A program made the position numbers and the translations under genes. Below are positions 556 through 17,823 of a stretch of 20,381 bases of DNA, piece after piece. Every line of letters begins with the position of its first letter. Within the stretch, counting starts at the first letter, position 1. Source of the stretch: a virus; the IMG/VR virus record IMGVR_UViG_3300047551_002116, positions 1-20,381 of that record. One strand, written 5' to 3'. Below the pieces are notes generated by a model that was not told the origin of the DNA, made no database searches, and was given only the letters and a program-made list of their open reading frames with translations.

Positions 556-2411
556 CAGCTCTGGCCCGCCTAGAACGCGCCGCCCTCACCGCCTTCAAAC
601 CCCCACGCAAGCTCTCCCTTAGCGAATGGGCCGACACATACGCCGTACTTAGCGCCGAATCAAGCGCAGAAGGCGGCCGTTGGCACACATTACCCTATCA
701 AAAGGGAATTATGGACGCAATAAGCTCAAATAACGTCGAACAAGTAACTGTAATGAAATCTGCGCGTGTTGGCTACTCCAAAATCCTCAATCACGTCATT
801 GCCTATCACATCCATCAAGACCCAGCACCGATCATGCTGGTTCAACCCACCATCGAGGACGCCCAGGGCTACTCCAAAGAGGAGATCGCCCCCATGCTCC
901 GCGACACCCCCTGCTTAGCCGGCCTAGTCAGCGAGGCCAAGGCCAAGGACGGGGCTAACACCATCCTCCAAAAGCAGTTCCCCGGTGGGACGCTCAGCCT
1001 CGTCGGCGCCAACTCTCCCCGCGGCTTCAGACGTGTGAGCCGACGCATCGTGCTCTTCGACGAGATCGACGGCTACCCCAGCTCAGCCGGCGCCGAGGGC
1101 GACCAAATCAAGCTCGGCATCCGCCGCACCGAGTACTACTGGAACCGCAAGATCGTCGCCGGCTCCACCCCCACCGTCAAAGACTTCAGCCGAGTGGAAC
1201 GCATGTTCCAGCAGACGGACCAGCGCCGCTACTTCGTGCCCTGTCCCCACTGCACCCACATGCAGTACCTCCGCTGGCCTAATTTCGCGTGGACGGACAG
1301 CGATCCCGCAACCGTCGCCTACAAGTGTGAGAACTGCGCGGAACTTATCCCCCACTCCAAAAAGCGCTGGATGGTCGAGCGCGGTGAGTGGCGCCCCACG
1401 GCCCCAGGCAACGGTCGCCACGTCGGCTTCCACATCTGGGCTGCCTACAGCTACTCCCCCAACGCCAGCTGGCCCCAGCTCGTCGAAGAGTTCCTCGACG
1501 CCAAGCACGACGCCGAAGCCCTAAAGACCTTTGTGAACACGGTGCTCGGTGAGACGTGGGAGGACGAGTACGCCTCGAAGATCGGTGCTGACGCTCTGCT
1601 GGAACGCGCCGCCAAGGAGACCTACGCCCACACCATCGCACCACCCGAAGTCCTGGCGCTCACCATCGGCTGCGACGTCCAAGACGATCGCCTAAGTCTG
1701 AGCGTCTGGGGTTGGGGCCGCGAAGAAGAGGGTTGGCTTATCGACCGCATCAAGCTCTACGGCAGCCCATCCCGCCCCGAAGTCTGGAAACAACTCGACG
1801 AAGTCCTAGCCAAGCCCTACACCAACGAGGCCGACGAGCCGCTCAAGGTGCTCTGCTGCGCAATCGACTCCGGCGGCCACCACACCCAGGAGGTCTACGC
1901 CTACTCCCGCGACCGCCACGCCATCGGCGTCATCGCCATCAAAGGCGTAGGCCAGAAAGGCAAACCCGTCTTAGGCAAACCCACCAAGGTCGACGTGAAC
2001 TACAAAGGCAAAGCCCTAAAGAAGGGGGCACAGCTCTTTACCGTCGGCGTTGACGGCATCAAGTCCCTGCTCTTCGGCCGCCTTAAGCACAACGAGCCCG
2101 GCCCTGGTTACCTGCACTTCTACCCCACGATCGGCGCCGACTACTTCCAAGAACTCACAGCCGAGAAGCAGATCCTCCGCTTTAGGAACGGCTTCCCCGA
2201 GCGGGTGTGGGTAAAGAAAAGCCAAGCACCCAACGAAGCCCTTGACGAACTGAACTACGCATACGCCGCTCTGCATCGTCTCTACCAGCGATACGACAGA
2301 CGTTCCATCTGGGATCAGCTGGAACGCCATAAGGAGCCTAAGCAGGTGCCCCAGCTAAGATCCAACAAGCAAAACCCGCCTAAACGGGCCAATTTCGTGC
2401 AGAGCTGGTAA
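552..2411 (+). CDS. terL: Terminase large subunit, lambda gpA family
   Basis: Packaging ATPase and nuclease that cuts the DNA concatemer and drives it through the portal. At 619 aa it is close to lambda gpA in length. The Walker A-like motif KSARVGYSK is at residues 69-77 and is the lambda gpA version almost letter for letter. A Walker B-like segment RIVLFDEID has acidic residues D170/E171. Two CxxC pairs (C231/C234 and C259/C262) look like a zinc ribbon between ATPase and nuclease. The nuclease domain begins with LTIGCDVQDDRLSLSVWGWG, where D375 is the likely first metal ligand. The GTG start is supported by AAGGAGG and by a GTGA overlap with terS. A short AT-rich patch covers the Walker A region (about 685-800), unlike the GC-rich surroundings. 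Confidence 0.95.
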   Translation: MTALARLERAALTAFKPPRKLSLSEWADTYAVLSAESSAEGGRWHTLPYQKGIMDAISSNNVEQVTVMKSARVGYSKILNHVIAYHIHQDPAPIMLVQPTIEDAQGYSKEEIAPMLRDTPCLAGLVSEAKAKDGANTILQKQFPGGTLSLVGANSPRGFRRVSRRIVLFDEIDGYPSSAGAEGDQIKLGIRRTEYYWNRKIVAGSTPTVKDFSRVERMFQQTDQRRYFVPCPHCTHMQYLRWPNFAWTDSDPATVAYKCENCAELIPHSKKRWMVERGEWRPTAPGNGRHVGFHIWAAYSYSPNASWPQLVEEFLDAKHDAEALKTFVNTVLGETWEDEYASKIGADALLERAAKETYAHTIAPPEVLALTIGCDVQDDRLSLSVWGWGREEEGWLIDRIKLYGSPSRPEVWKQLDEVLAKPYTNEADEPLKVLCCAIDSGGHHTQEVYAYSRDRHAIGVIAIKGVGQKGKPVLGKPTKVDVNYKGKALKKGAQLFTVGVDGIKSLLFGRLKHNEPGPGYLHFYPTIGADYFQELTAEKQILRFRNGFPERVWVKKSQAPNEALDELNYAYAALHRLYQRYDRRSIWDQLERHKEPKQVPQLRSNKQNPPKRANFVQSW

Positions 2412-2414
2412 GCC

Positions 2415-2987
2415 GTGAACATCCCATCCACCATCAGAGCCGGCGACACCATCCAGTGGAGGGACGACGCGACTACCGACAACCTCGGCGATCCCATCGA
2501 CAGCTCCACCTGGACCCTCACCTACTGGCTGCGCACCAACACAGCCGCTGAGGCCGCCAGCGTTGTAGGCACCGCTTACGGCACCGGCTGGGCCTTCACC
2601 ATCCCTGCCGTCACCTCCGCTGCCTTCGACGCCGGCACCTGGTACTGGCAGGCGATCGCCAGCAAGACCGGCGCTGTCGTCACCATCGGCTCCGGCTCCG
2701 CCACCGTCAGCCCCTCCCTCTCCTATACGGGCACCGCAACCGCCTACGACGGCCGCACCCAAGCCCAAAAAGACCTAGAGGCTGTCCAACTCGCCATCCG
2801 CACCCTGCTCAGCGGCGGCAGCGTCAAGGAATACCGGATCGGCCAACGCAGCATCAAGCGCTACGACTTAGCCGAGCTAATCCAGCTCGAAGGCCGTCTT
2901 AAGGCCGAAGTCAAGCGCGAACAAGCCGCCGAGCTCAGCGCCAACGGCTTAGGCAATCCCCGCAACATGTTCGTGAGGTTCGGCTGA
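2415..2987 (+). CDS. W: Ig-like domain fused to gpW-like head-tail joining domain
   Basis: The 190-residue protein has two parts. Residues 1 to about 100 are rich in Thr, Ser, Ala, Trp and Tyr and look like one beta-sandwich (for example TWTLTYWLRTN, GTWYWQAIASK). From about 112, KDLEAVQLAIRTLLSGGSVK and RSIKRYDLAELIQLEGRL match the pattern of lambda gpW (about 68 aa), which sits under the portal and stabilises packaged DNA. Its place between the terminase and portal genes is that of lambda W. The C-terminal NPRNMFVRF is a familiar ending for this architecture in prophages. The start is GTG, 4 bases after the terL stop, without a clear Shine-Dalgarno. The function of the N-terminal part is not known to me; surface exposure or neck decoration would be guesses. 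Confidence 0.72.
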   Translation: MNIPSTIRAGDTIQWRDDATTDNLGDPIDSSTWTLTYWLRTNTAAEAASVVGTAYGTGWAFTIPAVTSAAFDAGTWYWQAIASKTGAVVTIGSGSATVSPSLSYTGTATAYDGRTQAQKDLEAVQLAIRTLLSGGSVKEYRIGQRSIKRYDLAELIQLEGRLKAEVKREQAAELSANGLGNPRNMFVRFG

Positions 2988-4552
2988 TGGCTAAGAAGCG
3001 CAAGCGGCAACGCACCCAAACCCCGACGCCACTGAGCCCCGCCGCAGTCGTACCGGCCCCGCAAGCTCAGCCGCGTAGGCAGCGCCAATACCAAGGCGCC
3101 CTTATCTCGCGCCTTACGGCCGACTGGCTCGCCTCTCAGACGAGCGCCGACGCCGAAATCCGCACCAGCCTGCGCAAACTGCGCGACCGCTCCCGCGAGC
3201 TGGTCCGCAACAACCCCTACGCCAAGCAGGCCAAGCGCACCACCCAGATCAACGTCATCGGCACGGGCATCAAGCTCCAAAGCCAAGTCCTCCAGCTCCG
3301 CGGCAACAAACGCGACGACCGCATCAACCGCATCATCGAGGCCAAGTGGGAAGCCTGGACCCGCGCCACCAACTGCGACGTCGCTGGCCGCTACAGCTTC
3401 CACCAGATCGAGTGGATCGTCGCCGGCGCCCTCCCCGAATCCGGCGAAGCCCTAATTCGCCTGGTGCGTCGGCCCTTCGGCAAGTCCAAGATCCCACTCG
3501 CCCTTCAGGTCCTTGAAAGCGACTTGATCGACGAGGAGTACAACGGCGCCACTCTCAACCCCGCTAACGAGTGGCGTAACGGCGTCGAGGTCAACGAGTG
3601 GGGCCGCCCCGTCCGCTATGCCATCCTCACCCGCCACCCAGGCGACTACTGGTTCCAAGCCGCCCCGCAGCGCAACGAAAAACACGTCTTCCTAAGTGCT
3701 GACGAGGTCATCCACCTCTACTTGCCGGACCGGCCCTTCCAGAACCGTGGTGTGCCCTGGTACCACCCCGTGATGCTCGACGCCCACCAGCTGCAGGGCT
3801 ACGAAGAGGCCGCCGTCATCCGGGCCCGCGCCGGCGCCTCCTTGATGGGCTTCATCACCAACAACGAAGGCGAACTAACCCCCGACGACATCGAAAACAA
3901 CCAACGCATAAGTCAGTTTGAACCTGGTACGTTCAAGTACTTAGCTCCTGGTGAGGGCGTTACGGTGCCATCAATTGATGCGCCGGACCAGCAGTTCGAG
4001 ATGTTTGTCCGCAACAAGATCCGCCGCTTCGCCTCAGGCTTCGGCTGCTCCTACGAAACCCTCAGCCGCGACTTCAGCGAGACCAACTACTCCTCCTCTC
4101 GCCTGAGTCTCTTGGAGGACAGGGAGCACTGGCGCGTAATTCAGAACTACCTAATCGAGAACCTACATATGCGTGTCTTCCGCGAATGGCTAAGCCTCGC
4201 CGTCCTAAGTGGGGAGCTACCGCTTACTGACTACGAGCTGCGTCCTGAGCGGTACGACACACCTAGGTGGATGCCGCGTGGCTGGAGCTGGGTCGATCCA
4301 CTCAAGGAAGTCAAGGCCTACCGCGAAGCCGAGCAGGCCGGCTACATGACCAAGTCCCAGATCATCGCCCAGTCCGGTGGAGACTTCGACGACAACCTCG
4401 CTGAGATCGCCCGCGAAACCGCCTTAGCTACCGACCTAGGCGTCACCCTCGACCGCGACATCATTCACGCCACCCCTAAGCAAGGCGATCTCTTCGCCGC
4501 CTCACCTGATGCGTCCTTAGGTGACACCTCACCTGGCCCCGTAAGCCCCTGA
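2987..4552 (+). CDS. B: Portal protein, lambda gpB family
   Basis: The dodecameric portal through which DNA enters the head and to which the tail connects. The 521 aa length is near that of lambda gpB. Family motifs are visible: RDRSRELVRNNPYAKQAKRT near the N terminus followed by NVIGTGIKLQ, and later FVRNKIRRFASGFGCSYETL with NYSSSRLSLLEDREHW, the usual portal_2 signature. The N terminus starts with a basic stretch (KKRKRQR) and a Pro-rich linker. The ATG overlaps the TGA of the preceding gene by one base, and GAGG lies 8 bases upstream. It is followed by a 32-base gap that ends in the SD-less start context CTTATGG. Confidence 0.93.
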   Translation: MAKKRKRQRTQTPTPLSPAAVVPAPQAQPRRQRQYQGALISRLTADWLASQTSADAEIRTSLRKLRDRSRELVRNNPYAKQAKRTTQINVIGTGIKLQSQVLQLRGNKRDDRINRIIEAKWEAWTRATNCDVAGRYSFHQIEWIVAGALPESGEALIRLVRRPFGKSKIPLALQVLESDLIDEEYNGATLNPANEWRNGVEVNEWGRPVRYAILTRHPGDYWFQAAPQRNEKHVFLSADEVIHLYLPDRPFQNRGVPWYHPVMLDAHQLQGYEEAAVIRARAGASLMGFITNNEGELTPDDIENNQRISQFEPGTFKYLAPGEGVTVPSIDAPDQQFEMFVRNKIRRFASGFGCSYETLSRDFSETNYSSSRLSLLEDREHWRVIQNYLIENLHMRVFREWLSLAVLSGELPLTDYELRPERYDTPRWMPRGWSWVDPLKEVKAYREAEQAGYMTKSQIIAQSGGDFDDNLAEIARETALATDLGVTLDRDIIHATPKQGDLFAASPDASLGDTSPGPVSP

Positions 4553-4584
4553 GTTTCCACGCTGCTCTACTGCCTGACCTTCTT

Positions 4585-7500
4585 ATGGACACCGTGCCTA
4601 CGCAGTCGATGCGCGAGGAAGCGCAGCGATACCGCGACTGGAAAGCCAAGGGCCACAAGGGCGGAACTGGCGTCGCCGCTCGCCGGGCCTCCCAAATCCT
4701 CAGCGGCAACCCCCTTAGTAGCGACACCGTCCGCACGATGAGCGCGTGGTTCGCACGACATGAGGTTGACAAGCGTGCCGAGGGCTTCCGCCCGGGCGAA
4801 GCTGGCTACCCCTCACCGGGGCGCGTCGCCTGGGCTGCATGGGGTGGAGACCCAGGAAAGACCTGGAGCGACGCCTTAGTAAGTCGGATGGATCAAGATG
4901 AACGCAGCACCCCCGACACCGCAATGCCCGATGTAAGCGAAGCCGTAGCGGAACGCGAACTCGACCCCACACTCAGCGCTGTTCAAGCTGCCCTCTACGA
5001 GGCCCTCGAGGACGTCACCGAAGACCTCGGCAGCTTCGATCAGGGCTCCGGCGCTCACGGTGCGCACTACATGGCCGAGAGCCCCTTCGCCGACAAGGGC
5101 CTCGTCTGCGCCAACTGCGCCTTCTACGCCGGGCCCCGCGCATGCGAAATCGTCGAAGGCGACATCGATCCGGCCGGCGTCTGCAAGTTCTGGATCATCC
5201 CCGAGCGCCTAATTAGCGAGGCTCCCGAGACCGAATCCGGCCGGCCGTACCCCAACGAGCACGCCGCTCGCCTGCGCGACCCCTCGGCCTACGACCGCTT
5301 CCGTCGCCGCAACAACGCTGCCGGCCGCGGCATCGACTTCATCTTCGGCATCAAGTCCGGCGAATCCGGCGCCGACCTCCAAGCCATCCGCTTCAAGCTC
5401 GACCGCTTCACCGCTAAGCAGGCGAGGGAATGGCTAAGTAGTCACAACTATGAGCCGATCCAATTTGAGGAGGCCACGAACGCCAAGCAGCTAAGCGACG
5501 ACACTGCCGAGCGAGCTAAGGCCGACGAGCTCAAGAATGGTGACTTCGTGCGCTGGCAGAGCTCCGGCGGCACAGCTCAGGGCCGCATCGAACACGTCAT
5601 GCGCCAGGGCACCCTTGGCGTACCCGACTCCGAGTTCAGCATCAACGCCACCGAGGAAGACCCCGCCGCCCTCATCCGCATCTACCGCCAAGGCACCGAC
5701 GGCTGGAACGCCACCGAGACTCTGGTAGGCCACCGCTTCTCTACGCTAAGCAAAATTGCCCCCCTTAGGAATATGGATCCCCTTGATCGCAGCTCTGCTG
5801 AGCGGCTTACCCGTACGGAAGCCACAATCTTCCGCTCCCTAGCCGCTACCTCAGCTGACGCCGAAAACCGCAGCTTCGAGTTCCCCTTCAGTTCCGAGTT
5901 CCCAGTAGCTCGCTACTTCGGAAACGAAGTACTTAGCCACGAAGCCGACGCAGCAGACCTGGCTCGCCTTAACGACGGCGCCCCTCTGCTGTTCAACCAC
6001 AATCCCGACAAAGTCGTGGGTGTGGTGGAGCGGGCCTGGATCGACTCCAAGGACAAGCGCGGTTACGCCAAAGTCCGCTTCTCCCGCAACGCCTTCGCCC
6101 AGGAAGTACTAAGCGACGTGCGTGATGGCATCCTGCGCGGCATCAGCTTCGGCTACGCCATCGACAAGATGGAGGAGCGTGGCGGTGACTACGTCGCCAC
6201 AAAATGGCAACCGCACGAAATCAGCGTCGTCTCTATCCCAGCTGACCCGGGCGTAGGAATCGGGCGCTCTCTACTTACGACCGATCAGTGCTTACAACCC
6301 TCCAGCCCTAAGATCGAGAACGAAGCGCCTGCTAAGCAGGAGATCCGCCAAGCGGCCACAACCGCATCTACCCCCATTCCCGAAATGGAAACCACCCCTG
6401 ATCTGGAGGTGATCCGGTCCCAGGCCGCTGAGGCCGAGCGGACCCGGATTGCCGCCATCACCGCCCTCGGTGCTAAGCACCAGCTGCAAGACCTGGCCCG
6501 TGAGCTCATCGACGGAGGTCGCTCCATCGACGAAGCTCGCGCTGCTGTCCTCGACAAACTCGGCTCGACCCCCGTGGAAACTCCCATCCGCTCCACCGAC
6601 CTGACCACCAACGACGTGGGCCTGTCGGACAAAGAAACCAAGCGCTTCAGCTTCGTCCGCGCTCTCAACTACCTGGCCAACCCGGCCGACGCTTCGGCTC
6701 GCCGCGCCGCCGAGTTCGAAATCGAAGTCGGTCGCGCTGCCGCCGCCAAGTACGAGCGCTCCTCCAACGGCATCGTGGTGCCCAACGAGGTGCTGCGTCG
6801 CGACCTGACCGCCGGCCTCCCCTCCGCCGGTGGCAACCTGGTGGCCGACGAGCTGCTCAGCGGCTCCTTCATCGACCTGCTCCGCAACCGCCTCGCCCTG
6901 GCCAACGCCGGCGTGACCATGCTGAGCGGCCTGCAGGGCAACATCAGCATCCCCCGTCAGAGCTCCGCTTCCACCGCCTACTGGGTCGGCGAGAACGTGG
7001 CTCCCACCGAATCGCAACAGGCGATTGACCAAGTCAACATGACGCCCAAGACCGTGGGCGCCTTCGTCGACTACAGCCGCCGCCTGCTGCTCCAGGCCTC
7101 GATCGACGTGGAAGCGATGGTCCGTAACGACCTGACCCGCGTGATCGCCCTCGAGCTGGACCGCGCCGGCATCTACGGCACCGGTTCCTCCAACCAGCCC
7201 CTCGGCCTGGTGAACACCACCGGTATCGGCAGCCAGACCATCTCCACCTACGGCACCTTCGACGAGTACATCGGCATGGAGACCGATGTGGCGACGGCCA
7301 ACGCCGACGCTGGCTCGATGCGCTACATCATCAACGCCGCCGCCCGCGGCGCCCTGAAGTCCACCGCCAAGTCCGCCTCGGCTGTGGCTGCTGGCTTCGT
7401 GTTCGAGAACGGCGAGATCAATGGCTACCCCGCCATCGTCTCCAACCAGCTGCAGAACAACGACGCCCTGTTCGGCGACTTCTCCATGATGATCATGGGC

Positions 7501-7629
7501 ATGTGGAGCGGCCTCGACCTCACCGTCGACCCCTATGCCGGCGCCACCGCAGGCACCGTCCGCATCATCGCTCTGCAAGACGTCGACTTCGCCGTCAAGC
7601 AGCCCGGCGCCTTCTGCTACGGCACCTGA
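4585..7629 (+). CDS. Multidomain polyprotein: small N-terminal domains, HK97-type prohead protease and HK97-fold major capsid protein
   Basis: One uninterrupted 1014-residue ORF. Residues 1-100: a conserved phage domain with GGTGVAARRASQILSG and FARHEVDKR, function unknown to me. Residues 170-205: a four-cysteine motif (C175, C178, C187, C200) that could bind metal or an Fe-S cluster. Residues 221-297: a small PYPNEHAARL...RRRNNAAGRGID domain seen in phage proteins. Residues 315-395: a Tudor-like GDFVRWQSSGGTAQGRI domain. Residues 396-565: an S78 prohead protease with LLFNHNPDKVVGVVE (H472) and GISFGYAID (S521) as likely catalytic residues, and PHEISVVSIPADP. Residues 600-665: a helical delta/scaffold-like segment. 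Residues 680-1014: the HK97 capsid fold, with AGLPSAGGNLVADELL, the GENVAPTESQQ region and a GTGSSNQPLGL strand. No Shine-Dalgarno precedes 4585. Met601 (6385) could be an internal start giving a separate 414-aa capsid precursor. Confidence 0.9.
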   Translation: MDTVPTQSMREEAQRYRDWKAKGHKGGTGVAARRASQILSGNPLSSDTVRTMSAWFARHEVDKRAEGFRPGEAGYPSPGRVAWAAWGGDPGKTWSDALVSRMDQDERSTPDTAMPDVSEAVAERELDPTLSAVQAALYEALEDVTEDLGSFDQGSGAHGAHYMAESPFADKGLVCANCAFYAGPRACEIVEGDIDPAGVCKFWIIPERLISEAPETESGRPYPNEHAARLRDPSAYDRFRRRNNAAGRGIDFIFGIKSGESGADLQAIRFKLDRFTAKQAREWLSSHNYEPIQFEEATNAKQLSDDTAERAKADELKNGDFVRWQSSGGTAQGRIEHVMRQGTLGVPDSEFSINATEEDPAALIRIYRQGTDGWNATETLVGHRFSTLSKIAPLRNMDPLDRSSAERLTRTEATIFRSLAATSADAENRSFEFPFSSEFPVARYFGNEVLSHEADAADLARLNDGAPLLFNHNPDKVVGVVERAWIDSKDKRGYAKVRFSRNAFAQEVLSDVRDGILRGISFGYAIDKMEERGGDYVATKWQPHEISVVSIPADPGVGIGRSLLTTDQCLQPSSPKIENEAPAKQEIRQAATTASTPIPEMETTPDLEVIRSQAAEAERTRIAAITALGAKHQLQDLARELIDGGRSIDEARAAVLDKLGSTPVETPIRSTDLTTNDVGLSDKETKRFSFVRALNYLANPADASARRAAEFEIEVGRAAAAKYERSSNGIVVPNEVLRRDLTAGLPSAGGNLVADELLSGSFIDLLRNRLALANAGVTMLSGLQGNISIPRQSSASTAYWVGENVAPTESQQAIDQVNMTPKTVGAFVDYSRRLLLQASIDVEAMVRNDLTRVIALELDRAGIYGTGSSNQPLGLVNTTGIGSQTISTYGTFDEYIGMETDVATANADAGSMRYIINAAARGALKSTAKSASAVAAGFVFENGEINGYPAIVSNQLQNNDALFGDFSMMIMGMWSGLDLTVDPYAGATAGTVRIIALQDVDFAVKQPGAFCYGT

Positions 7630-7887: not shown

Positions 7888-8298
7888 ATGTCCATCCTGT
7901 CCACCGGCCTGGAGAAGCTCCAGCACTTCGCCCTGGCCCCCACCGCTGTCCGCACCAGCAACCTCGACGGCACCGCCGTTGACCTGAACGACTACGAGGG
8001 CGACGTGGTCGTCATCCTCGACGTCGCCAACGGCGGCACCTCCACCCTCGACGTCAAGATCCAGAGCTCCGACACCTCCGGCGGCTCCTACAGCGACGTG
8101 ACCACCGCCTTCTACCGCGGCGGCTCCGAGGTTGCCTCCTCCGCTGTGGCCTTCTCCCAGGTCAGCACCACTGCCTCCAAGCAGTACCTGGTGTTCCCCA
8201 AAGGCGCCGCCAAGCGCTGGATCAAGGCCGTCAGCACCACCTCCTCCTCTTCGCACACCTACAGCATCAACGCTGTCGGCACCAAGAAGTACGCCTAA
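7888..8298 (+). CDS. Putative head decoration protein
   Basis: 136 residues, beta-rich. The core VVVILDVANGGTSTLDVKIQ followed by SSDTSGGSYSDVTTAF and later KRWIKAVSTTSSSSHTYSI resembles small beta-sandwich proteins encoded after capsid genes. Codon choice is strict (mostly C-ending), no CTAAG/CTTAG occurs inside, and a strong terminator follows the stop. Together these point to a highly expressed structural protein, as lambda D (decoration) would be in this position. A weak GAGG lies about 7 bases before the ATG. The second half resembles the product of the gene at 8883 in pattern. The assignment is by position and expression signals, not by a firm family match. Confidence 0.6.
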   Translation: MSILSTGLEKLQHFALAPTAVRTSNLDGTAVDLNDYEGDVVVILDVANGGTSTLDVKIQSSDTSGGSYSDVTTAFYRGGSEVASSAVAFSQVSTTASKQYLVFPKGAAKRWIKAVSTTSSSSHTYSINAVGTKKYA

Positions 8299-11679: not shown

Positions 11680-14600
11680 ATGGCCAAGCAGGTAAGCGAG
11701 CTCTTCATCAAGCTTGGCATCCAGGGCGAGCAGGAACTAAGCGCGTTAAGGAGCTCGTTCAACGAGTTAAGTAAGGTAACGAAGCTAAGTGAAACGGACC
11801 TCAACAGTATCCGCACCCGCTTAGTTGAGTTTGGGCGTGAAGCTGGCAATACAGAGCGTGTAAACCGTGGTCTTACCGACGCCTTCCGCGGCTTGCTAAG
11901 CGAGGCGTCCCGAGGCTCCGCCATCTGGCAGCAACTGAACAGCGACTTATCCAAGCTGCGCCAAGAGGCTAGACTAACCGACACAGAATTAAACTCTCTA
12001 CGTGATATTGTAGTCAAGGAGTCAAGTGCTCACAAGCAGTCTTCCGCCTCCATTAAAGAGCACATAAAGTCTCTCCAGGATCTTAAAAATCAAGCGTCAT
12101 TAAACGGTAAGCTATACCAGCAGCTCGATGCAGACATTGAAAAGCTCAATTCTACCTTAGCTCAAAGTACTGCTGGCAACAGAGAGCATTACAAGTCTCT
12201 AACTACGATCTTAGCTGTAAAGCCTGAAAAAGTATTAAAAGCTTGGCAAGATTATAAGCGCATCCTTGATGAAGGTACCGCTTCATCCGAAAAATTAGCT
12301 GTAGCCCAGACCCGCCTAAGGCAACTATCAGGTGCTCCTCGGATTTTAGAGCGCCAGAAAATCGCTCAATCTGCAGAAATCATAGGAGACCCGGAGTACT
12401 TTAAGCGCTTTGGCTTTGCAGGAAGGTCTCTCCCTGAACTGCCCAACACCAATGCAGCCTACGCTCAACAGGTCAAAGAACTTCAGCAAGATCTAGCAAA
12501 CCTGGATCGTACCAGTGTTGCGTACCTTCAGACGCTCATGCAGCTAGCGGACGTACAGCGCCAAGCTACTGAAGTAACTCAAGGCTACGCACAGGCACTT
12601 CTGCTGGGGCTCAACACAGGCGCTGCTGCGCGTAGTGCCCGCAACCTGCAGGAGGTAATCGCCGCTCTGCGAGCGGAAATGCAGCAGCTGGATGTAGCCA
12701 CATCGGAAGGAGCAGCTGCGTATGCCACGAATGCCAACCAGGTTCGGACCCTGGAGCGAGAGCTCAACCAACTAGCCAACAGTTACAGACACGTAGGAGA
12801 CGCCGCTGCACAGGCCACAACAGCGGTCTCGGCTGCCTCTACTGGGTTTACTTCTCGCACCGACCCACTCACAGGGGGTGTAAACCCAAAATACGTTGCC
12901 GAGCAGCAACGTATATTTGAAGACCTGGTTGCCCAGGCTGAGCAGGGCATTGCCGGCGCCCTGGACGCAGCTATCGCAGCAAAAACAAAACTGTATGAAT
13001 ACCAGGCAGCCAAAGAAGCAGCCGTAAATGAAGAAGCAAATGCTGCCGCAGCAGAGCTAATTTCCCTACAAGAAAAGCAACTTGATTTAGAGGTAAAGTT
13101 AGTTGAACAGGAGTATCGTAGACTTAACATACTAGAACAACAAGCCGCCGCGGCTAAAAACGCGCTGGGCTTTAAGGCACAGCAGCAGCTCTCCCCATTC
13201 TATGAATCTATTGTTGATCTATCAACGGCATCTGTCCGCGAACAGCAGTCCCGCATGGGGCGCTCTTCTGTAGAAGCATTTAACGACATTGTTACTGCAT
13301 TTACTGCTGGAGGAAGACCCACAGACCTTAAGGAAAAGAGCACGTACATAGGTGAGTCAGTAGCAGCAGGTATCACAAAAGGCGCGACTGACCAGGGGGC
13401 ATTGGCTGATAGTGCCAAGACCTTTGCAGACCGCTTAATTGCCGCCTTCAAGAAAGCTTTAAGGATTCAAAGCCCTTCAGGTGAGTCTCGTGACAAAGTA
13501 GGCATACCAATCGGCCAGGGCATTGGCGAAGGCATAATTCAGGGCATCCAATCATTCAAGCAACAGATTCAATCGACCATCCGTGATGTACTAGCTACTC
13601 CTGGGAGAGCCCCCCTATACACAGGTCAGCTAGGCCAGCCAACTCAAATGGCCGATAAGCTGCAAAATCTTATCGCACGCACAAGTTCGCGTACCTCTAC
13701 TTATCTGCCTTATGCACGCCTACTAGGAGAAAACGTTCTAGGTTCGCCGGCGTTAGAGGAAGCGTTTGTACGCAGGCTGTACGAGCAGGGAGGCGTTGTT
13801 CCGCCTGCTTTCCTGCCCGCCAGCGCTCGCCGACCTCTGCGTGGTACATCCGGCATTCCAGGCGGAAACCTAGAGAGCTTCCTAAAGCTCAGCGCAATCC
13901 AGGCCGTCTCTCGTTCTGGCGCCTTTACAGGCCCATTAGCACCGCCAGCTACAGCCCCTGGTGCAGTCAGTTCCTTGTACTCATCTCTGTTTGCCGCACG
14001 CGGGGGTACACAGGTAGGAACTGGTGCGTTCCCGCTATTTAGCCCTGTCTCTACTGTTCCCCTAGCTCAACTGCGCACCACACTTCAGCAGCTCGGCGGA
14101 CGCAGCTATAGCCTGGGAAGCACCCCAGGTGGTTCGGCTGCAGACACGCTCAGTCGCCTTGTAAACGCAGCGAGCTCCCTTAGCAAACTTGCTACAGAAG
14201 CAGCTCCTGGTCTTGGTCGTCTTGACACAGTAATCAGCAACGTTAGGCGTGAGCTGAGGGCTTTAAACGCAGAACCTACAGCTTATAAGTTTCCACTGTC
14301 CTCTATGCTGCTGCCCGGCGGCATTACAGTAAACACAGAAAGATACCGTAGAGCGTCTACACAACTTAGTTCCTATGGAGGATCACTACTCGGTTTTGGC
14401 AGTATGTATTCCGACCCACGCGGGGGTACAGGTAGGTATCGTTTTCCCTTAGAAGGTATGATGGGCCCTTCGTCGCCTATTGGCGGAGGCTCAGGTGGTT
14501 ATAAGTTCCCCTTAGATGGCATGCTGGGCCCTTCTGGATCTCCTAAGGGCATGGCAGCGTTGAATGCCACCCTCAAGGAGTTTGGTCCACTAAGTCAAGC

Positions 14601-17600
14601 CAGTACAGCACGTATCCGTGCTCTGGCCAGTGTGCTTGGAACGCTACAAGAGGAACTATCTCCTTTAGATGCTTCCTATGAAAAAGTTAATCGTGCTATT
14701 GAAAAGCAAAATGTCCTTATTGAACGGGAAACCACTAGGCGTGAGCGCCGCCGAAATCGTCTTACCCTTGGTCAAGGCGTCCAAGCAGCTGGCGCGGTCA
14801 TATCCGGCGGTATTTTTGGTGGGCCGGAAGGCTTTGCAGGCGGCCTGCTGGGTGCTGGTATAGGCAGCATCGTTCCTGGGCTTGGCACCGTCGGGGGAGC
14901 GTTTGCCGGCTCTGCTATCGGCGGTCAACTAGGTATGTTCAGACAGCAGCTAAGTGCTGCGACAGAACTAAGTTCAGAATTAACGCGACAACGTACAGCA
15001 TTGCAAGGCGTTGTATATAGCTACTCCGACTACCTAAGTGCTGTACAAGCGACAGAAGCACTTTCAAGACGCTTTAACATACCACTTACTGATACAACTA
15101 CTCAGTTTACCCGCCTATCTGCTGCTGTACTCGGATCAGGTCGTTCTATCAAGGACTCCGAGTTTGCTCTAAAGGCTGTAACCCAGGCTATCAAGGGCAC
15201 GGGCGGCGGCGCTGAGCAGGTTCAGGGAACGCTTCTCGCCCTTACGCAGGTGTTCTCAAAAGGTAAGGTAAGTGCTGAAGAACTAAACCAGATCGCCGAA
15301 CGGCTGCCTGGTACGTTTACGACGTTTGCCCAGGCTGCCGGAAAGTCAGGTCCGGAGCTTCAAAAAGCTTTACAGGACGGCAAGGTTACTATAGACGACT
15401 TAATGAAGTTCCTAGAGCTTCTTAGTAAAAAGTACGCTAAGACTGCCGATGACATTGCAAAGTCATCTCAGGATGCTGGAGCACGGTTTACGAAAGCTTT
15501 TCAAGATTTACAGCTAACTGCTGGTAGCGCACTTCAAGGCATTGGGTCTGATTTTCAAGATTTTGGAACTCGTGTTGTTGCTAGCCTAGATCGCATAATA
15601 CGCAAAATGATTGAACTCGGGCTAATTAAACCTGGTGCTCAGTATTACGTAGCGGAAATAGAGGCTAAGCGTATGTCAACTAGCCAGCTAGAGCAGCGCG
15701 TTCTAGAAGCAGCTGCCCGGGCAGAAGAGGAACGTTCTTCACCCTTGTACCGTCTTTTTGGCATAGGAGGTCAAGCAGGGCGACTGAACCCTGTATATAA
15801 CGCGCTGGGCTTACAAAACATTCTAAGTCCAAGCAGTCAAGAAGCTGATGTACTTGAGCAGGCACTTAAGCGTATTCGTCAGGCGGAAGCCTTAGCCAAC
15901 AAACCAGGCGGCCCTCCACCGCTCCCTGGCACGAATGGTGAAACCCCAGAGCAAAAACGCCTACGCGAGCAACGCGAAAGAGACGCACAGGTAGCTGCCG
16001 AACAAGCACAGCGGCGCAATGAGGAAATCGCTAAGCAGCAGATCCGCCTAGCTGACAACGTCTTCAAGCACCAGATGGAGCTAGAAGAGCGTCGCTACCA
16101 GCGCCGCAAAGAGCTGGCTGACTTAAATGCACAGAATGAGCTCCGGCTTCTTTTTGGTACTGAGCGAGAACGCGCTGCAGCTGATCTGCGCTATAGACAG
16201 AGCGTAGAACAGTTTGACCGCCAGATTGCGGATGCCAGGCGCGAGGTGGCACGGCAAGGGCAGGCTCTCCGCTCCGCTCAGCAGATGGCAGCGGTTACAG
16301 CAGGAGGTGCTGGGACAGCAGCAGGGACATTACTACAGCAAGGTACAGGATTTACGCCACAACAGCTAACGGCAGCCACTTCAGCCGCGGCCAAATTTAC
16401 AGGTGTCGCCAATATGTGTGCAGAGTCCGTAAAGGCTTTTTACGCTTCCTTAGGCATTTCACTGCCTGGTGTAACTGCGTGGGCGGATACCGTGCAGAAA
16501 GCTGGAACAGTTATGCGTGATTGGAGCAAACTAATGCCTGGCGATATTGTCGCCACAGGCAGGCCTGGAGATACACCTCATGTCGGCGTGTACACAGGTG
16601 GTTCCAACGTATTCCATCAGTCTAGAAGTCGTGGGCTGCGGGCAGGTAACTTCCCTGATCTAAATTACTTCCGCGGAGGTTATTTCGTCAGGCCGGCCGC
16701 AGCAGGTAGACAACGCGCTGCCGTTGCTGCTCAACAAAATCGTGCCATTGCAGATGTGGGCGATATTGATATGGCACAGCTGGGTCTACAGCAGGCTCAG
16801 CGCACTCTTGCAGACCTACTGGCGGAACGCCCCGGCTTCCAGAAAGCGGCTGAGACAACCCGCGTGCTCGACTACAGCGAAGCTATAAAGCAGCAAAATG
16901 TTGAACTAGATAAAGAACTTCGTCTACTTAGACAGCGCGTAGACTTGCAAACCCAGGGCTACACGGAAGCCTATATCGAACTGCAGCTCAAAGTAAATGA
17001 AAATACACGTGAACAGGCAAAACTAGAAGCCGAACTTCTCAATGCTGAGCCCTCAAAACGGGACGCTATCACCGCCACACTAGAAGGTCTACGCGAGGAG
17101 CTACGCATACGCCGTGACATCTACGACCTACAAGAGCGCACAAAACAAGGCTTCGGCTTCCGCGAAGGAGCTAAGCAGTACGTCGAATCCTTAGGCTCCA
17201 TGAAGGAGGCCACTTCACAGCTCACCCTCAACGGAATCAAAGGCCTCGAGGATGCCTTGATGGATCTGGCCACGACAGGTAGCGCCAACTTCGCCTCCTT
17301 CGCTGCCGAGGTGCTCAAACAGGGTGCTCGCATGATCCTGCAGCAGCTCGTCCTTAAGCCGCTAATACAGGGATTGGCCAATCTGTTCAACCCTGGGGCA
17401 GCCGCGGCTTCGAGCTTCTCTGCTTTCAGCCCTGCTGCGCTGAATTTTGGTCCTATGGGGCCTGGTATCTCTGCATTCTCGGCTAACGGCAATGTCTTCG
17501 CATCCAACGGCATCATCCCTTATGCCATGGGCGGCATCGTGAATACGCCGACCCTCTTCCGCTTCGCCAACGGAGGCGTACCCTCCACGGGCCTTATGGG

Positions 17601-17823
17601 CGAGGCTGGCCCGGAAGCGATCATCCCGCTCCGCCGTGGCAGCGACGGCAAGCTCGGCGTTGCCGGGGGCGGCTCAACCAGCATCACCATCAACGTCGAC
17701 GCCAAGGGCAGCTCAGCCGAGGGCGATCCCGGCCGAGCCGCCGCCCTGGGTCGTGTCATCACCGCCGCCGTCCAAGCCGAGCTCGTCAAGCAGAAGCGCC
17801 CTGGCGGCCTGCTAAGTCGGTGA
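11680..17823 (+). CDS. H: Tape measure protein with embedded NlpC/P60-like domain
   Basis: 2047 residues, more than twice lambda gpH. Sets tail length and passes into the cell with the DNA. N-terminal third: coiled-coil (repeated LRSSFNELSK-type heptads). Around 590-615: LRIQSPSGESRDKVG and a glycine-rich helix, a motif known from tape measure proteins. Residues 869-954: three YKFPL-type repeats. About 1036-1085: a Gly/Ala-rich hydrophobic segment that could enter a membrane. About 1144-1290: the conserved tape measure domain (VSAEELNQIAERLPGTFTTF). About 1575-1665: an NlpC/P60-like peptidase with C1580, H1634 (HVGVYTGG) and H1646. From 1825: the lambda gpH C-terminal domain (FREGAKQYVESLGSMKEATS), ending with GLMGEAGPEAIIPLRRG. 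The middle (about 12000-16900) is more AT-rich than both ends, suggesting mosaic origin. AGGAGG supports the start. Confidence 0.93.
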   Translation: MAKQVSELFIKLGIQGEQELSALRSSFNELSKVTKLSETDLNSIRTRLVEFGREAGNTERVNRGLTDAFRGLLSEASRGSAIWQQLNSDLSKLRQEARLTDTELNSLRDIVVKESSAHKQSSASIKEHIKSLQDLKNQASLNGKLYQQLDADIEKLNSTLAQSTAGNREHYKSLTTILAVKPEKVLKAWQDYKRILDEGTASSEKLAVAQTRLRQLSGAPRILERQKIAQSAEIIGDPEYFKRFGFAGRSLPELPNTNAAYAQQVKELQQDLANLDRTSVAYLQTLMQLADVQRQATEVTQGYAQALLLGLNTGAAARSARNLQEVIAALRAEMQQLDVATSEGAAAYATNANQVRTLERELNQLANSYRHVGDAAAQATTAVSAASTGFTSRTDPLTGGVNPKYVAEQQRIFEDLVAQAEQGIAGALDAAIAAKTKLYEYQAAKEAAVNEEANAAAAELISLQEKQLDLEVKLVEQEYRRLNILEQQAAAAKNALGFKAQQQLSPFYESIVDLSTASVREQQSRMGRSSVEAFNDIVTAFTAGGRPTDLKEKSTYIGESVAAGITKGATDQGALADSAKTFADRLIAAFKKALRIQSPSGESRDKVGIPIGQGIGEGIIQGIQSFKQQIQSTIRDVLATPGRAPLYTGQLGQPTQMADKLQNLIARTSSRTSTYLPYARLLGENVLGSPALEEAFVRRLYEQGGVVPPAFLPASARRPLRGTSGIPGGNLESFLKLSAIQAVSRSGAFTGPLAPPATAPGAVSSLYSSLFAARGGTQVGTGAFPLFSPVSTVPLAQLRTTLQQLGGRSYSLGSTPGGSAADTLSRLVNAASSLSKLATEAAPGLGRLDTVISNVRRELRALNAEPTAYKFPLSSMLLPGGITVNTERYRRASTQLSSYGGSLLGFGSMYSDPRGGTGRYRFPLEGMMGPSSPIGGGSGGYKFPLDGMLGPSGSPKGMAALNATLKEFGPLSQASTARIRALASVLGTLQEELSPLDASYEKVNRAIEKQNVLIERETTRRERRRNRLTLGQGVQAAGAVISGGIFGGPEGFAGGLLGAGIGSIVPGLGTVGGAFAGSAIGGQLGMFRQQLSAATELSSELTRQRTALQGVVYSYSDYLSAVQATEALSRRFNIPLTDTTTQFTRLSAAVLGSGRSIKDSEFALKAVTQAIKGTGGGAEQVQGTLLALTQVFSKGKVSAEELNQIAERLPGTFTTFAQAAGKSGPELQKALQDGKVTIDDLMKFLELLSKKYAKTADDIAKSSQDAGARFTKAFQDLQLTAGSALQGIGSDFQDFGTRVVASLDRIIRKMIELGLIKPGAQYYVAEIEAKRMSTSQLEQRVLEAAARAEEERSSPLYRLFGIGGQAGRLNPVYNALGLQNILSPSSQEADVLEQALKRIRQAEALANKPGGPPPLPGTNGETPEQKRLREQRERDAQVAAEQAQRRNEEIAKQQIRLADNVFKHQMELEERRYQRRKELADLNAQNELRLLFGTERERAAADLRYRQSVEQFDRQIADARREVARQGQALRSAQQMAAVTAGGAGTAAGTLLQQGTGFTPQQLTAATSAAAKFTGVANMCAESVKAFYASLGISLPGVTAWADTVQKAGTVMRDWSKLMPGDIVATGRPGDTPHVGVYTGGSNVFHQSRSRGLRAGNFPDLNYFRGGYFVRPAAAGRQRAAVAAQQNRAIADVGDIDMAQLGLQQAQRTLADLLAERPGFQKAAETTRVLDYSEAIKQQNVELDKELRLLRQRVDLQTQGYTEAYIELQLKVNENTREQAKLEAELLNAEPSKRDAITATLEGLREELRIRRDIYDLQERTKQGFGFREGAKQYVESLGSMKEATSQLTLNGIKGLEDALMDLATTGSANFASFAAEVLKQGARMILQQLVLKPLIQGLANLFNPGAAAASSFSAFSPAALNFGPMGPGISAFSANGNVFASNGIIPYAMGGIVNTPTLFRFANGGVPSTGLMGEAGPEAIIPLRRGSDGKLGVAGGGSTSITINVDAKGSSAEGDPGRAAALGRVITAAVQAELVKQKRPGGLLSR
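14284..14541 (+). repeat. Three imperfect YKFPL repeats inside the tape measure gene
   Basis: Units begin at 14284 (YKFPLSSMLLPGG), 14437 (YRFPLEGMMGPSS) and 14500 (YKFPLDGMLGPSG). The last two are 63 bases apart and similar also at DNA level. They are joined by Gly/Ser-rich linkers and interrupt the otherwise helical protein. Confidence 0.6.

Follow-up and report, generated by a model that had tools for sequence, protein, structure and literature searches.

The window, a viral record of 20,381 bases, comes from a virus of a kind that infects water bacteria. Its head operon runs in the order TerS, TerL, joining protein, portal and a 1014-aa open reading frame (ORF), to which we assign the following features:

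4585..7629, + strand: full-length fusion ORF (1014 aa), with an ATG start and no internal stop; predicted minor, protease-carrying product
4585..4893, + strand: HEVDK module (residues 1-103), matching phrog_2859 and found elsewhere on stand-alone proteases
5062..5202, + strand: Cys4 module, HiPIP-like (residues 160-206), with a profile match to the solved HiPIP 3h31
5242..5478, + strand: RRRNN module (residues 220-298), conserved in 79 of 81 close relatives
5524..5766, + strand: Tudor-like module (residues 314-394), with PF11160 (Hva1_TUDOR) above the gathering cut-off
5872..6264, + strand: Peptidase_S78 domain (residues 430-560), PF04586, E 3.5e-10
6265..6384, + strand: variable linker (residues 561-600), indel-rich and with the lowest codon adaptation
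6385..6387, + strand: predicted internal start codon ATG (Met601), from ATG/GTG conservation, the codon-usage step, open mRNA and a Shine-Dalgarno (SD) sequence in outside relatives
6385..7629, + strand: nested reading, a predicted 414-aa delta-capsid precursor (major product), from codon usage, structure, SD and start conservation
6385..6804, + strand: delta/scaffold-like domain (residues 601 to about 740), a conserved block
6829..7626, + strand: mature HK97-fold capsid protein (about residue 749 to 1014), Phage_capsid 749-1013, predicted limits

The original prediction had placed a prohead protease, a major capsid protein and four extra small modules in this ORF, and the Pfam and PHROG matches agree with both the domain list and its coordinates. 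The Pfam matches are, in order, Hva1_TUDOR (residues 319-365), Peptidase_S78 (447-556; 40.7 bits against a gathering score of 21, a predicted protease) and Phage_capsid (749-1013; 146.9 bits against 24.2). Residues 418-1014 match positions 15-622 of the 626 in PHROG 617, a family of S78-capsid fusions labelled 'major head protein', with an E-value of 2.9e-162. The NCBIfam model for prohead protease/capsid protein fusions, NF045541, scores 200.5 bits, below its curated cut-off of 525 bits, and covers residues 425-711 only; the layout is thus related to NF045541, and the protein falls outside the membership of that family.

The fusion itself is almost certainly real. Loss of a stop codon near 6280-6390 through a sequencing error, one of two ways in which the original prediction could have failed, is excluded, since the same stretch reads through without a stop in 80 other contigs, among them a near-identical relative that was assembled separately. 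That an assembly or sequencing artefact joined two genes has a negligible probability, as the same fusion occurs in >200 independent contigs and in the isolates S-CBS1, S-CBS3, CRP-811, CRP-821, S-LBS1 and RcSaxon. The other way, close relatives with two separate genes, found no example: protease and capsid were separate genes in none of the >200 related contigs collected. A search of a genome collection gave a single match, a short contig binned as a proteobacterium, which says nothing on the host.

Three further observations concern the rest of the window. Shortly 3' of the fusion, a 136-aa ORF (7888-8298) matching phrog_5707 has the most capsid-like codon usage of the window (0.82) and is a candidate high-copy decoration protein. 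The 2047-aa ORF at 11680-17823, a probable tape measure, has a GC3 of 0.47 compared with 0.7-0.9 in most of its neighbours, which suggests a different origin or low expression. The motif CTNAG is over-represented across the window, with 141 sites against 96 +/- 9 expected from dinucleotide shuffles, none of 100 of which reached 141.

Of the four N-terminal modules, the one with four cysteines resembles a HiPIP (high-potential iron-sulfur protein). Its profile alignment with the solved HiPIP 3h31 (E 6.7e-5) pairs all four cysteines, which are spaced C-x2-C-x8-C-x12-C in the window, and the HiPIP spacing C-x2-C-x6-16-C-x8-14-C is retained in all 48 Cys4 modules found. The Pfam HiPIP profile had no match at E 0.1 across the whole fusion protein and we therefore call the module, on sequence grounds, only HiPIP-like. 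The Tudor-like module appears beta-barrel-like in a partial AlphaFold2 model (pLDDT about 80); the model of residues 1-400, built from 20 sequences, had a pLDDT of 48 and is usable for this part alone. We found no solved homologues of the HEVDK and RRRNN modules, and Foldseek gave no significant match.

Elsewhere the modules are attached to proteases that stand alone, the capsid protein being encoded by its own gene further downstream. HEVDK occurs on an XkdF-type protease in Limnohabitans phage DC31 and, in Vibrio phages, on a head-operon protein that weakly matches DUF2213; it stands alone in S-CBS4 and forms the C-terminal end of a portal in HATV-3. In Actinomycetia phage DSL-LC01 it lies on an annotated capsid maturation protease adjoining an annotated high-potential iron-sulfur protein gene. 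These occurrences indicate that the modules belong to head proteases and their neighbours, which fits a role on a minor product. In DSL-LC01, the high-potential iron-sulfur protein gene is followed by three consecutive annotated capsid maturation protease genes (1052-6723), all four lying upstream of the capsid gene.

We collected ~230 loci, partly through two further queries, IMG/VR holding 579 relatives of the whole protein. S78, delta and capsid share one frame in all complete loci. Profile scans for the modules distinguished 15 architectures, ranging from plain S78-delta-capsid (62 loci) to the full HEVDK-Cys4-RRRNN-Tudor-S78-delta-capsid of the window (43 loci), counts that are approximate because some loci overlap or end at a contig edge. 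The module order is constant in all architectures and always N-terminal to S78; none of the collected loci has a module between S78 and capsid or behind the capsid. Since the modules recur in fixed order, they are not a random string, and the window is one combination of a module mosaic, which is widespread in metagenomes and seldom seen in isolates. A tblastn search of phage records found the N-terminal part also in Synechococcus phages S-CBS1 and S-CBS3 and in Roseobacter phages CRP-811, CRP-821, CRP-822 and CRP-831. The suggestion that the domain combination is unusual thus holds for isolates, among which S-CBS1/S-CBS3 and the CRP roseophages carry parts of it, and fails for metagenomic viruses. 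In one metagenomic relative (L141, 2493-2780), a stop stands where the Cys4 module should have its Trp codon (CKF*IVP); the protease-capsid frame is intact but cut off from the N-terminal part, through either an error or a natural truncation.

Within the C-terminal part, His472, Ser521 and Glu545 of S78 are invariant in 88 divergent sequences. The delta/scaffold-like domain occupies the position of the HK97 delta domain, and its residues 607-661 are predicted helical with low confidence in a full-length AlphaFold2 model made without an alignment. The only solved relative found by sequence is the capsid of phage R4C (8gta; PMC10276861), whose mature chain 8gta_A aligns to the fusion from residue 749 (E 3.2e-55). 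The deposited R4C chain has 268 residues, corresponding to residues 362-629 of a 629-aa ORF; being the C-terminal part, it places the protease and delta domains outside the modelled shell of that phage. We found no mention of a protease or of cleavage in the text of the R4C paper (PMC10276861). The short chain agrees with a capsid precursor that is started internally, but post-translational cleavage would account for it just as well, and the deposit may also leave out residues that were unresolved in the structure.

One way to read these data is a single polyprotein, in which only the full-length product is made, in hundreds of copies per head, so that protease and modules enter the procapsid on each copy and are cut off at maturation. 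The frame uninterrupted in all relatives, the invariant catalytic residues and the R4C chain that consists of the C-terminal part only all speak for it. We nevertheless regard it as unlikely, as it leaves unexplained three features of the region between protease and capsid: a codon 601 that is only ever ATG or GTG, a step in codon usage between protease and delta, and an SD sequence before the linker ATG in relatives outside the group of the window.

The first feature is apparent from the alignment of 81 close relatives, in which S78 is conserved to residue 560, the linker (561-600) is rich in indels and a conserved block begins at exactly Met601, whereas the codon just before it varies freely. 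Among cyanophage-type relatives, codon 601 is ATG in 187 and GTG in 19 sequences and never another codon (206/206); the search pattern required Met or Val at this position, and the five sequences that it missed were read by eye (L111 has GTG and is among the 19, L161, L176 and L180 belong to another group, and L131 begins behind the site). At other methionine columns, the cyanophage-type sequences also have Leu, Ala, Ile, Thr, Gln or Phe. Several sequences of the S-LBS1 clade have Val at 601, always encoded by GTG; only 2 of the 27 invariant Val columns of the Val clade retain a single codon, GTG in both cases. Divergent members nearly always have a Met in the linker. Met397, considered as the start of a stand-alone protease-capsid product, was rejected, as only 23% of relatives have Met there.

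The codon-usage step is equally sharp. Under a two-segment model, synonymous usage in the window ORF breaks at codon 607, with a log-likelihood gain of 60 compared with at most 38 in 60 synonymous shuffles, and the break falls within codons 560-640 in 69 of 79 sequences (median 607). Codon adaptation, scored against the capsid codons of relatives with delta outside the reference set, is 0.48 for residues 1-600, like that of TerL (0.47) and portal (0.48), and 0.75 for residues 601-1014, a score exceeded in the window only by the gene at 7888-8298. Averaged over relatives, it is 0.43-0.48 in S78, 0.26 in the linker and 0.63 in residues 601-640; delta scores above S78 in 78 of 79 relatives, and with few exceptions also in the other clades (several S-LBS1-type GTG sequences were counted in the third clade, and the conclusion is independent of them). 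Differences in expression level could not explain such a step if every capsid domain were co-translated with the protease. Part of it could stem from selection for accuracy in translating the capsid, or from an old recombination junction.

Initiation signals proper vary among groups. Outside the cyanophage-type group, the predicted anti-SD pairing of the linker ATG has a median of -5.8 kcal/mol in 18 divergent relatives, compared with -1.8 kcal/mol at their remaining internal ATGs (p 3e-8, a significance overstated because the relatives are phylogenetically non-independent). The better of two candidate ATGs was used for 8 of these 18; in the other ten, where there was a single candidate, the median is likewise near -5.8. 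Roseophages CRP-811 (aaggagaacactATG) and CRP-821 (aaaggagtgatcccATG), both of which carry N-terminal modules, have a textbook SD before the linker ATG. An SD is absent before codon 601 in the window and the cyanophage-type group, and pooling all relatives gave no clear signal of SD enrichment at the linker ATG. Several ordinary genes of the window also lack one, including the fusion at its own start (4585). The mRNA around site 601 is unusually unstructured in cyanophage-type members (median z 1.5; ~5% of other ATGs are as open), to which we give little weight because the Pro/Thr-rich linker could by itself produce weak structure. An SD-like GGAGGTGATCC at codons 606-610 was discarded as an initiation signal; it lies downstream of ATG601 and has no start codon at usable spacing 3'. 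Elsewhere, the ClpP-type protease-capsid fusion of Pseudomonas phage F10 (2657-4969) has a linker ATG at residue 297 with an SD-like caggagttcgcccacATG, so that a nested start, judged from this one sequence, may exist there too.

We consider it likely that the ORF contains a nested gene, in which internal initiation at Met601 yields a separate delta-capsid precursor. Translation from 4585 would give a minor 1014-aa protein with the modules, S78 protease, delta and capsid domain, and initiation at ATG 6385 an abundant 414-aa delta-capsid precursor. The original prediction had warned that every capsid subunit would carry a protease and a large cargo unless the protein were cleaved or translated internally. 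The exception that it allowed is the reading we favour and the worry itself is probably wrong: the conserved start codon, the codon-usage step and the SD in outside-group relatives together suggest that most capsid subunits never carry protease or cargo. A separate capsid-only message, transcribed from an internal promoter near 6300 with no ribosome entry inside the long mRNA, would account for the start codon and codon step as well, and the sequence is compatible with either; the SD of outside-group relatives, however, works at the level of translation, and we hold such a transcript to be very improbable.

Further steps of the nested-gene reading are more tentative. Because both forms carry the same delta and capsid domains, they would co-assemble in one procapsid, incorporating the protease at a low ratio. 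The protease would then remove the delta domains together with itself and the modules, either form being reduced to about 265-275 residues, the mature capsid protein. The modules would be accessories of the protease form and not cargo on each capsid subunit. We infer internal initiation, product ratio, cleavage sites and module role from sequence; that a minor full-length form co-assembles, and that the modules act as proposed, is possible but somewhat doubtful. With similar reserve, and only as a whole, we propose a strategy in tailed phages resembling Gag-Pol: internal initiation would set a low ratio of the full-length fusion, whose capsid domain would force the protease and modules, the HiPIP-like iron-sulfur domain among them, to enter the procapsid. 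There the modules would control the protease or function at the portal before being shed, both products giving identical mature capsid subunits.

Hundreds of aquatic phages are annotated with one "major capsid protein" of 600-1000 residues. If the internal start is true, the last 410-430 residues make up the functional capsid precursor, whole-ORF annotations and capsid phylogenies combine two genes, and the family provides a simple and testable means of setting the ratio of protease to capsid when a shell assembles itself. The analysis also places small shuffled modules, one of them iron-sulfur-like, on head proteases.

Parts of this arrangement exist in well-studied phages. The HK97 protease belongs to the S78 family, and in lambda C/Nu3 an internal start within the gene for the protease yields the abundant scaffold as a product of its own. 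We found no report of an internal start in protease-capsid fusions in the literature searched, the coverage of which was incomplete, and claim no priority. Lambda protease and scaffold share one gene (PMC8508860), but the capsid protein has a gene of its own, whereas the nested product of the window would comprise scaffold and capsid. In HK97, the N-terminal delta domain of the capsid protein serves as a scaffold, which the protease then cuts off (PMC8508860, PMC10275583); gp4 and gp5 thus provide protease and delta domain as in the window, but from two genes.

Protease-capsid fusions are indeed known, as the original prediction had remarked: the S78-capsid kind is represented in PHROG 617, and protease-capsid fusions have NCBIfam models and are annotated in actinophages and Rhodobacter phages (PMC8601537). 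The PHROG 617 fusions of Synechococcus phages S-LBS1 and S-CBS1/3, Rhodobacter phages RcCronus and RcSaxon, Dinoroseobacter phage R4C and Escherichia phage ECO1230-10 share with the window the S78-delta-capsid order in one frame, the start codon in the linker and the neighbourhood of TerL, joining protein, portal and fusion, although most annotated members lack the four N-terminal modules. For Pseudomonas phage MD8, protease (ClpP-type), scaffold and capsid were proposed to lie in one gene (PMC8508860); the MD8 and F10 fusions have the same three-in-one layout, but with a ClpP-like instead of an S78 protease and without N-terminal modules. Conversely, in DSL-LC01 and DC31 the protease (S78 or XkdF) carries HEVDK, HiPIP-like and Tudor modules or has them next to it; unlike the window, these phages encode the capsid protein in a separate gene.
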